64,000 bases of DNA from contig NZ_PDJE01000001.1 of NCBI RefSeq assembly GCF_002563955.1, positions 1,116,001 through 1,180,000 of the forward strand. The letters are read 5' to 3'. The translations under genes and the position numbers were made by a program. This document shows positions 61,295-64,000 of this stretch, in pieces (position 1 is the stretch's first letter; each line of letters opens with the position of its first letter). Source of the DNA: Paramicrobacterium agarici (GTDB lineage: Bacteria > Actinomycetota > Actinomycetes > Actinomycetales > Microbacteriaceae). Under the pieces are notes generated by a model. That model worked only from the letters and a program-made list of their open reading frames with translations, searched no databases and was not told the DNA's origin.

Positions 61295-61900
61295 GTGCTT
61301 CTCTCAGACCGCGACATCAAAGCAGAGTTGGCGGAGTCCCGCATTGGGCTCGATCCGTACGACATCGACATGGTTCAGCCGTCGAGCGTCGACGTGCGCC
61401 TCGATCGGTTCTTTCGCCTGTTCGACAACCACAAGTACCCGTACATCGACCCGTCACAGGATCAGCCGGAGCTGACACGACTCATCGAGGTCGAGCCGGA
61501 CGAGTCGTTCATTCTGCACCCGGGCGAGTTCGTGCTGGGCTCCACGTTCGAGCAGGTCACGCTGCCCGACGACGTGGCGGCACGACTCGAGGGCAAAAGC
61601 TCGCTCGGCCGCCTCGGCCTGCTCACGCACTCCACAGCGGGGTTCATCGACCCCGGGTTCTCGGGGCACGTCACACTCGAGCTCAGCAACGTCGCGACGC
61701 TGCCGATCAAGCTGTGGCCTGGCATGAAGATCGGGCAGCTGTGCTTCTTCAGGCTCACGTCTCCGACAGAGCAGCCCTACGGATCGGCGGCATACGGCTC
61801 GCGGTACCAGGGGCAGCGTGGCCCGACAGCATCCCGCTCGTTCGCAAACTTTCACCGCACGGACGTAAGCGTGACCGATGTCGGACGGCTCGGCGAGTAG
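61295..61900 (+). CDS. dcd: dCTP deaminase
   Basis: A 201-residue dCTP deaminase ([57 protein letters not shown]). It makes dUTP (or dUMP in bifunctional forms) for thymidylate synthesis. The GTG at 61295 has no clear ribosome-binding site. Confidence 0.93.
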
Positions 61901-61958
61901 CAATCCGCTCTGAGCAGAATCGCGCGACAGCGACGCGACGCCCGACTTAGGGTGAAGC

Positions 61959-62357
61959 ATGGCTGAGATCGTAAAGATGCACGAGGCGCGACGGCGACGG
62001 CGCCCCGTTGCGTGGGAACCTGAGCAGCGAGAACCGAATCACCGTGGTCGTGACCGACTGCACGCAGAGATGCGAAAGCCCGAGCGACTGTGGCGCGAAG
62101 CACTCGGCGAACGGTTTCGCGAGCACCGGAGCCGACGCGGCGAGAAGCTCACCGATACGGCGAAGACCGCTGGTGTCTCGCCGCAGTACCTCTCAGAGGT
62201 GGAGCGGGGACGCAAAGAGCCCTCGAGCGAGATGATCGCCGCGATCGCCGGTGCCCTCGGCACAACGCTCGTCGAGCTTACGGGCGAGGTGGCGACCGAG
62301 CTGCAGCGCCAGGGCGCGCCGCGCAGTGGCGGCAACGCCCTGCTGCTCGCGGCCTGA
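61959..62357 (+). CDS. ClgR/PopR-like XRE regulator with C-terminal Ala-Ala
   Basis: A 132-residue protein with a basic N-terminus and an HTH (RLWREALGERFREHRSRRGEKLTDTAKTAGVSPQYLSEVERGRKEPSSEMIAAIAGAL) that closely resembles ClgR and Streptomyces PopR. It ends NALLLAA; PopR and ClgR carry C-terminal Ala-Ala that marks them for Clp proteolysis. It converges on two clpP genes, the same neighbourhood as PopR, so control of those genes is likely. Confidence 0.8.
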   Translation: MAEIVKMHEARRRRRPVAWEPEQREPNHRGRDRLHAEMRKPERLWREALGERFREHRSRRGEKLTDTAKTAGVSPQYLSEVERGRKEPSSEMIAAIAGALGTTLVELTGEVATELQRQGAPRSGGNALLLAA

Positions 62358-62365
62358 GCGAGGCG

Positions 62366-62974
62366 TCAGGCGACAGCATCCGTCACTTCTCTCGTCGTGA
62401 GCACCTGGTCGACGAGTCCGTACTCGAGCGCTTGCGCCGCCGTGAACACCCGATCGCGGTCGGTGTCGCGGCGCAGAGTCTGCACGCTCTGCCCGCTGTG
62501 CGCGCTGAGGATCTCTTCGATCTCGGCGCGGATTCGCACCACCTCGTCGGCCTGAAGAATGAGGTCGGGGATCGCCCCGCGTCCCTCGGCCGCGGGCTGA
62601 TGCAGCACGACCCTGGCGTGCGGGAGCACCGCTCGCCGGCCAGGGGCTCCCGCGGCGAGAAGCACAGCGCCAGCGGCGAGGGCCTGCCCGACGCAGGTCG
62701 TCGCGATGGGTGACTGCACGTACTGCATGGTGTCGTAGACGGCGAGCATCGACGCAAGGTCTCCGCCCTCGCAGTTGATGTAGAGGTTGATCGGCTCGCC
62801 CGAACTCTCGGACTCGAGGTGCAGCAGCTGCGCGATGATCGCGTTGGCGACTCCCGCGTCGACGGGCGTGCCCAGGTAGACGATGCGCTCCGTGAGCAGG
62901 TTGGAGTAGACATCCATGATGCGCTCGCCGCGTGGATGCTGCGCGACGACGTTCGGGATGGTGTACGAGGTCAT
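62366..62974 (-). CDS. ClpP-family protein with Ala at the catalytic Ser position
   Basis: A 202-residue ClpP homologue ([46 protein letters not shown]). The nucleophile motif GQAASMG reads GQALAAG, so the catalytic Ser is Ala100; the His is kept (His125, RVVLHQP) and an Asp follows in RRDTDRDR. It should not be proteolytic by itself but can form mixed rings. It starts one base after the stop of the active clpP. Confidence 0.85.
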
Positions 62975-62975
62975 G

Positions 62976-63587
62976 TCAGACCCCCAGTCCGATCGGATTT
63001 CTGCGGTCGGGCATCACCTGGTCGAAGCTCGACACGATGCGGTCGATGAACCCGTATTCCTTCGCCTGCTCGGCGGTGTACCAGCGGTCGTGGAGTGAAT
63101 CGTCAAATACCCGCTCGAGCGGCTGCTCGGTGTCGGAGGCGATGAGCCCGAGGACCGTGTCGCGCGTGTAACGCAGGTCGTCAGCCTGCACCTCGACCTC
63201 GACGGCCGTGCCGCCAATGCCTGCGGAGCCCTGGTGCATGAGGATGCGCGCGTGGGGCAGAGCGCTGCGCTTGCCCTTCGTGCCCGATGACAGCAGGAAC
63301 TGCCCGGCGCTGCACGCGAGGCCGATCGCGAGCGTCGAGACGTCGCAGGGGACCAACCGCATGATGTCGCGAATCGCGAGCATCGACGGGACGCTGCCGC
63401 CAGGGGAGTGGATCCACAGGGCGATGTCGGTCGTGGCGTCCTCTGCGGCGAGAAGCAGCAGCTGGCTCGCGAGCAGCGTTCCATTGTCGTCATCGAGAAC
63501 CCCGTCGAGAACGAGCACTCGCCGGTGCAGCAGCTGCTCGCGCATGCGCTCGGTGAACAGCGGTGGAGATGAGTCGTCGTGTGTCAT
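62976..63587 (-). CDS. clpP: ClpP protease subunit with intact Ser-His-Asp
   Basis: A 203-residue ClpP-family protein with the oligomeric fold ([25 protein letters not shown]). The nucleophile is Ser93 in LACSAGQ and the His is His118 in ILMHQGS; an Asp lies in [11 protein letters not shown]. It should form rings with its partner and dock a Clp ATPase. A GGCAGATCTGCC/GCTCTG...CAGAGC repeat lies upstream (63632-63660). The ATG at 63587 fits the domain; the longer frame to 63623 is less likely. Confidence 0.88.
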
Positions 63588-63631
63588 GACTCGAGCATGC
63601 GCGGCCCGATGCCATGAGCGCACGGGATGCT

Positions 63632-63660
63632 GCTCTGGGCAGATCTGCCGCGGGCAGAGC
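63632..63660. promoter_or_regulatory. Nested inverted repeat upstream of clpP pair
   Basis: GCTCTG (63632) and CAGAGC (63655-63660) enclose a perfect GGCAGATCTGCC palindrome; TCTGCC-gcg-GGCAGA also forms a dyad. It could be an operator for the neighbouring ClgR/PopR-like regulator or a terminator for the gene ending at 63669. I cannot decide from sequence. Confidence 0.4.
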
Positions 63661-63668
63661 GGGAGCGA

Positions 63669-64000
63669 TCAGGTGAGCGCGTTGACGCGCACGACGACGA
63701 TCTGCGTGGTCATCTCAGCGTCGAGAGGGGAATGCTGCGCGAAATATCCCTGCGGCGCGGCGGCGATCACGACGGTGCCGACGGGCAATCCCTCGAGGTC
63801 GACGCCGAGAAACTGCGAGAGGGCGCGGCCGGAGGCGACAGCCGTGTCGAACGAACCGGAATCCGGTGGCGAGAGGTGTGATTCCCCGCCGTAGTTCCAC
63901 GGGGCCGTGTCGTAGCCGAACGAGACACGGCTCGAATCAGTGATCGTCGTGGAGCTCTCGCCGTCGACAAGCACCTTCCCTTCGAGTGCGGTGGGCGGAG
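63669..64000 (-). CDS. FKBP-like protein (5' part outside window)
   Basis: The visible C-terminal ~110 residues (VLVDGESSTTITDSSRVSFGYDTAPWNYGGES..., SQFLGVDLEGLPVGTVVIAAAPQGYF..., TTQIVVVRVNALT) resemble the strand pattern of an FKBP-type peptidyl-prolyl isomerase domain, although several active-site positions are degenerate. The N-terminus lies beyond the right edge, so signal peptide and first domain cannot be judged. Confidence 0.5.
   Translation of the reverse strand, partial: PPTALEGKVLVDGESSTTITDSSRVSFGYDTAPWNYGGESHLSPPDSGSFDTAVASGRALSQFLGVDLEGLPVGTVVIAAAPQGYFAQHSPLDAEMTTQIVVVRVNALT

Follow-up and report, generated by a model that had tools for sequence, protein, structure and literature searches.

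A clpP3-clpP4-popR backup Clp locus whose ClpP4 lacks the catalytic serine

The two-gene clpP operon described here and the regulator gene beside it constitute a backup Clp system of the clpP3-clpP4-popR kind, familiar from Streptomyces, and its ClpP4 has lost the catalytic serine and is under purifying selection. We consider it likely that the locus encodes a reserve protease controlled by PopR, a hetero-tetradecamer in which ClpP3 would do the cutting and ClpP4 would dock ClpX/ClpC. With somewhat less assurance, we favour the view that the backup ClpP4 of actinobacteria is a recurrent pseudo-protease, which would have lost Ser, His or Asp depending on the lineage beside a ClpP3 that is intact in the rows examined. 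It would then be an independently evolved counterpart of the ClpP/ClpR arrangement, setting a non-docking cutting ring on a non-cutting docking ring, in Streptomyces too.

The clpP pair closes the window (the whole 64-kb stretch of DNA that was analysed; features in Table 1), with the clpP4-like gene beginning one base past the stop of the clpP3-like gene, for which a longer reading from a GTG at 63623 is possible. The initial annotation had described a two-gene clpP operon with Ser93/His118 upstream and Ala100/His125 downstream, and its coordinates and residues were reproduced exactly, catalytic positions being assigned by alignment with E. coli Ser97/His122/Asp171. Both proteins match the Pfam CLP_protease family (219 bits for the downstream, 175 bits for the upstream protein) as well as the sequences of solved ClpP structures. 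Set against the Ser-His-Asp triad of an active ClpP peptidase, the clpP4-like protein has Ala100 in place of Ser, the one triad residue that it has lost, and keeps His and Asp. It carries the full axial loop (PRGER) and the docking Tyr; the clpP3-like protein is without the canonical N-terminal axial loop. A phage head-maturation ClpP was considered and rejected, as the domain model NF045542 gives 56.5 and 61.7 bits at a cut-off of 120. A promoter and terminator scan of 61900-64000 predicted neither kind. A dCTP deaminase gene (61295-61900, plus strand) adjoins the popR-like gene. Elsewhere in the genome, a single contig of 3.23 Mb with four ClpP matches in two pairs, the second pair is a canonical clpP1-clpP2 at 2123355-2124585, with Ser in both proteins and clpX following. 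The genome encodes one ClpX and two proteins with a Clp_N domain, and since all of these matches lie outside the window, the clpP3-clpP4 pair presumably uses the common ATPases of the cell.

Table 1. Features of the clpP3-clpP4-popR locus (positions in the window)
Feature	Position	Strand	Details
clpP3-like gene	62976..63587	minus	203 aa from ATG; motifs GLACSAG (Ser93), LMHQ (His118), Asp167
clpP4-like gene	62366..62974	minus	202 aa; motifs GQALAAG (Ala100), LHQP (His125), Asp174
popR-like gene	61959..62357	plus	132 aa; XRE/ClgR-related helix-turn-helix; converges on clpP4-like gene; C-terminal LLLAA
Tandem PopR-type operator (predicted)	63629..63658	minus	ends 41 bases ahead of clpP3-like ATG
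Operator copy 1	63644-63658		TCTGCC-CGC-GGCAGA; exact
Operator copy 2	63629-63643		TCTGCC-CAG-AGCAGC; 2 mismatches; directly after copy 1

Four of five congeners (the genome of the window counted; the exception is G001) carry the pair, and all four have Ala100, encoded by GCC in the window and by GCG, GCC and GCT in the others. Among congeners, dN/dS is 0.022-0.077 for ClpP4 and 0.070-0.088 for ClpP3. In the best 120 of 7556 database homologues, the nucleophile position is Ala in 105, Ser in 8, Glu in 3, Gly in 2, and Thr and Gln in 1 each. An erroneous Ala, or a clpP4-like gene in decay, would fit with the loss of further catalytic residues in some lineages, where ClpP4 gives up His (for Gly, Asp, Asn or Thr) or Asp (for Ala or Glu), and with a clpP4 match that is divided over two frames in one relative (G029, L018). 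We nevertheless give this explanation almost no credence, given an Ala common to four congeners through differing codons, a ClpP4 dN/dS like that of ClpP3, Ala in 105 of those best 120 homologues and a complete open frame. For the window, sequencing error and pseudogene alike were rejected on the congener codons and dN/dS. The two doubts voiced in the initial annotation are thereby answered, for a sequencing error is excluded by the same observations, and the notion that all homologues carry Ser fails at 105 Ala to 8 Ser.

A wider set of 95 downstream proteins (the window, 14 related genomes and 80 named records, the last being the best of at least 588) has Ala in 73, Gly in 13, Ser in 8 and Asp in 1 at the nucleophile position, with His in 92 and Asp174 in 93. 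Their upstream ClpP3 partners, in which the named records are again the best 80 of at least 588, have Ser in 93 of 93 readable proteins and His and Asp167 in 94 of 94, one of the 94 being uncovered at Ser as its reading is incomplete. The retention of His and Asp in so much of this selected ClpP4 set would suit a subunit that stays active through a substitute nucleophile or residues of its partner; yet position 100 wanders among Ala, Gly, Glu, Asp, Gln and Thr, and the aligned motif shows no conserved replacement Ser, Thr or Cys, and such residual activity is in our estimation very improbable.

Upstream of the clpP3-like gene, the window sequence TCTGCCCGCGGCAGATCTGCCCAGAGCAGC at 63658-63629 is a tandem of two 15-base palindromes. 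The exact palindrome is found once in 64 kb where 0.01 would be expected; the genome as a whole has two such places and, on each strand, three for a reversed control pattern, and as this is no enrichment, the case for an operator rests on place and conservation. The second exact palindrome sits inside a reading frame that we take to be galT-like. The PopR site of S. lividans is given as TCTGCC-3N-GGCGAATCTGCC-3N-GGCAGA (PMC9775585), and this published form is also present upstream at the S. fungicidicus locus. Allowing no mismatch, up to one and up to two, the site was recovered in 24, 48 and 90 of 115 upstream regions; for 59 permuted half-sites the corresponding averages were 0.02, 0.27 and 3.92, with 1, 6 and 40 as the highest values. 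Its tandem form, at no more than 7 mismatches in 24 (a threshold of our own choice, with no prior rule behind it), is found in 107 of the 115 regions, with a control mean of 3.7 and a maximum of 75; the latter came from TCCGCT, which like CCTGCT is a top-scoring permuted half-site and a near neighbour of the true motif.

Against the NCBIfam ClgR model the popR-like protein scores 64 bits and a separate ClgR-like protein elsewhere in the genome 97 bits, both under the cut-off of 170, so that PopR is named here from position, C-terminus and operator and not from a curated model. Unlike the popR-like protein, that ClgR-like protein (C1:2006290-2006577; L150 ~1615-1923) has no C-terminal Ala-Ala and ends in DLVTR; its gene is flanked by what are presumably cinA-like and recX/recA-like genes. 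A degradation signal of C-terminal alanines is said to have been shown for PopR itself in Viala 2002. Two such alanines are described as the likely degradation signal of ClgR and Lon (PMC9775585, PMC7142297), and in S. lividans the ClgR paralogue PopR is reported to activate the clpP3-clpP4 operon and to be degraded by ClpP1P2 (PMC9765437, PMC12607617, PMC9775585).

The family was followed through 116 loci: 15 come from related genomes (window counted), 80 from named records, 3 from plasmids and 18 from a survey of the phylum. At least 588 named loci were confirmed, of which the best 80 were used; these are rich in Nocardia, so the counts are of sequences and not of events; the survey, in which 8 loci and 20 stretches were taken among the matches listed over 396 genomes, is not a measure of prevalence. 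With that selection of named records, clpP3 lies ahead of clpP4 on one strand in 115 of the 116 loci (the exception, L074, is a short contig without clpP3), and 103 have a popR-like gene that runs towards clpP4 in convergent orientation, with an Ala-Ala end in 98 of these. A popR-like hit was not found at the other 13 of the 116: some are short, but Kribbella and some Nocardia have full flanks. The Kribbella loci (L065, L066, L085, L094) hold the clp pair with no popR-like hit found within ~3 kb, and their regulation may differ from the PopR type. Of 59 genomes, the window's own counted, 15 have the pair and 14 of these a popR-like gene within ~1.5 kb. Complete clpP3-clpP4-PopR-like sets are present outside the window's class at L135 (G165) and L139 (G408), from which the system is probably old; the catalytic Asp of their ClpP4 has become Ala in both, and the His has become Asp in L139. 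A plasmid-borne origin as the norm was rejected, given that 157 plasmid records match, 2 of them at 60-80% identity and 155 below 60%. In an Acidipropionibacterium MAG (L093) the clpP3-like reading, like the clpP4 match of L018, is divided over two frames.

In a tree from an alignment stripped of its active-site columns, the 46 ClpP4-like rows, Streptomyces among them, form one clade (100/99), and 21 ClpP3-like rows, Streptomyces included, form another (99/98) that neighbours housekeeping ClpP1; the tree took in 46 of 116 ClpP4 and 21 of 115 ClpP3 loci, its bootstrap is not settled and several backbone branches are weak. The comparison with Streptomyces ClpP3/ClpP4 proposed in the initial annotation thus finds both proteins in shared clades. 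The full Ser-His-Asp triad is present in every row of ClpP3 (21/21), ClpP1 (8/8), ClpP2 (8/8) and the single ClpPs (9/9), and in only 8 of the 46 ClpP4 rows. Ser, His and Asp174 each need a minimum of 5 changes on the tree, and the intact or broken state of the triad needs 7, numbers that do not separate loss from regain. The residue lost in the window's clade is Ser, mostly in favour of Ala, and another group within the window's own family (L012, L013, L124, L130) has Gly instead; Asp174 is replaced by Ala or Glu in 6 of the 46 rows. Among 121 rows of the Streptomyces type (S. fungicidicus ClpP4 and the best 120 of 7999 matches), all 121 have Ser, and the His position holds Gly in 119, Ala in 1 and His in 1. 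Judged by these residues, Streptomyces ClpP4 is probably catalytically dead. The single row that keeps His (P0001) is a protein of 331 residues, apparently two ClpP4-like pieces joined, and may be an assembly chimera. Ser at position 100 is found in Nocardia jejuensis (L036), Actinomadura hibisca (L072) and three Kribbella (L065, L066, L085), in or beside the Ala clade, which indicates that a dead site is not obligatory in ClpP4; in nested species the Ser may be a one-base reversion.

The two subunits also part company at the features through which a Clp ring meets its ATPase. With rows trimmed to the matched domain, the axial-loop columns are complete in 45 of 46 ClpP4, 8 of 8 ClpP2 and none of 21 ClpP3; the sole ClpP4 row without the loop is presumably L018, where the reading is split and the larger part was used. 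At the docking position E. coli Tyr62, Tyr is present in all 46 ClpP4 and in 5 of 21 ClpP3, where Trp stands in 11, and Leu occupies the Phe82 position in 16 of the 21. Since 19 of 21 ClpP3 rows are aromatic at Tyr62, ATPases might also dock on ClpP3. The ClpP4 pocket departs from that of E. coli, with His for Phe49 (39/46), Thr for Ile90 (33/46) and Ala for Phe112 (27/46), the first of these being found likewise in all nine single ClpPs. The Tyr60 position holds Gln, Asn, Ser or Glu in 40 of 46 ClpP4 and Tyr in 7 of 8 ClpP1; Streptomyces ClpP2 is reported to have Ser there (PMC9765437). In Streptomyces ClpP1P2, according to the same source, ClpP1 cuts, ClpP2 alone docks all three ATPases tested, and a Ser-to-Ala change in ClpP2 leaves activity full (PMC9765437). 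For M. tuberculosis, too, docking of ClpX and ClpC1 is attributed to the ClpP2 face alone, and a core with dead ClpP2 is described as maturing somewhat faster (PMC4416901). From the residues and from this ClpP1P2 precedent in Streptomyces and Mycobacterium, where the docking ring can do without catalysis, a division between a cutting ClpP3 and a docking ClpP4 is most likely, and the simplest model would have ClpP4 as a docking ring whose active site was superfluous and was given up. E. coli has a ClpP of its own. Counting against this division, RelB is reported to be lost faster in E. coli with S. cattleya ClpP4X and ClpP5X (PMC4989188), under gene names that may not correspond to those used here.

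Live and dead subunits could instead share each heptamer, as in cyanobacterial ClpP3/R, the dead ones tuning the rate or the crowding of active sites. The rings of Synechococcus ClpP3/R are indeed described as 3:4 mixtures, and giving ClpR back its active site is said not to make the core faster (PMC4673316). That paper, however, also tells of certain non-photosynthetic bacteria whose two ClpPs lie in separate homogeneous heptamers (PMC4673316), the ring-by-ring work on M. tuberculosis likewise speaks for separate rings (PMC4416901), and the axial-loop contrast of ClpP3 and ClpP4 resembles that of housekeeping ClpP1 and ClpP2, which suits one ring each; mixed heptamers are on this footing unlikely, though they deserve some weight. 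ClpP4 might also be regulatory or dominant-negative, mixing with housekeeping ClpP1 or with ClpP3 to damp activity in the manner of ClpP-ADEP, which disrupts ClpP1 tetradecamers and is an instance of one ClpP paralogue poisoning one partner and supporting another (PMC12607617). Such a poison would hardly be expected beside ClpP3 in 115 of 116 loci, the remaining one a short contig; moreover, S. lividans is reported to require either clpP1P2 or clpP3P4 for viability (PMC9765437), which makes clpP3P4 a working protease there, and we regard a dominant-negative role as improbable.

Separate rings with divided labour would operate as follows. In healthy cells, housekeeping ClpP1P2 and its ATPases would clear PopR, probably by way of its C-terminal Ala-Ala; turnover of PopR by ClpP1P2 has been demonstrated by others in Streptomyces and would carry over to this locus. 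Should ClpP1P2 fail, PopR would build up, bind the upstream tandem palindrome and turn on clpP3-clpP4, the products of which would assemble as a hetero-tetradecamer. All peptide-bond cleavage would come from ClpP3, and ClpP4, its catalytic Ser lost, would supply the axial gate and the docking face for ClpX/ClpC. The sequences, their orthology and conservation, the regulator and the operator were observed here; assembly, docking and induction upon ClpP1P2 failure are steps that we infer.

Many Clp cores pair two ClpPs, and frequently the active site of one is expendable; the advantage of two different ClpPs per core is called unclear (PMC4673316). A docking subunit that repeatedly sheds its active site, next to a partner that does not, would make the idea of divided labour directly testable. 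Were Streptomyces ClpP4 dead, the reading of antibiotic and inhibitor data on ClpP3P4 would be affected, and a recurrent pseudo-protease that extends to Streptomyces may bear on the escape of ClpP3P4 from acyldepsipeptides. A search of part of the open-licence literature found no statement of a ClpP4 without catalytic residues. The initial annotation, which knew of no established case of this exact pairing in the family, agrees with this result, but the clpP3-clpP4-PopR system itself was already known. The interpretation given in that annotation is partly supported: conservation backs the pairing of a dead with a live subunit, and a non-catalytic (docking or structural) role is the most plausible reading; it had missed the orthology to Streptomyces ClpP3/ClpP4, the PopR-like gene and the operator.

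Among known systems, ClpP-ADEP of Streptomyces hawaiiensis is similar in being an accessory ClpP by which a hetero-oligomeric Clp core is remodelled. It differs in that one gene alone, in the neighbourhood of an antibiotic cluster, is described; the protein is most like ClpP1 and proteolytically active with ClpP2 (PMC12607617). The ClpR of cyanobacteria and plastids shares with ClpP4 the state of a triad-defective ClpP paralogue beside an active ClpP, though of the triad the window's ClpP4 lacks only Ser. ClpR belongs to another phylum and to a constitutive essential core, mixed in-ring in Synechococcus (PMC4673316). The likeness of the window's ClpP4 to ClpR would be one of analogy only; in the tree, which was built without ClpR, it falls with the actinobacterial ClpP4 clade. 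Actinobacterial ClpP1P2 (Streptomyces, Mycobacterium) is again an asymmetric pair of which one member cuts and the other docks ATPases (PMC9765437, PMC4416901). Its ClpP2, however, has the full triad in 8 of 8 rows even though the Ser is reported to be dispensable in Streptomyces (PMC9765437), and ClpP4 has mostly lost the triad. Closest of all is Streptomyces clpP3-clpP4/PopR, with the same gene order, converging Ala-Ala regulator, tandem TCTGCC-3N-GGCAGA operator and separate clpP1P2, and with orthology in the tree; plasmid p1 of S. fungicidicus has the same clpP3-clpP4-regulator layout, its regulator ending in CLAA. The Streptomyces-type ClpP4 differs in keeping Ser and exchanging His for Gly (119/121, from the best 120 of 7999 matches), where the window's ClpP4 exchanges Ser for Ala and keeps His. 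The locus is thus of a known kind, the clpP3-clpP4-PopR system, of which a recurrently dead ClpP4 would be a variant.
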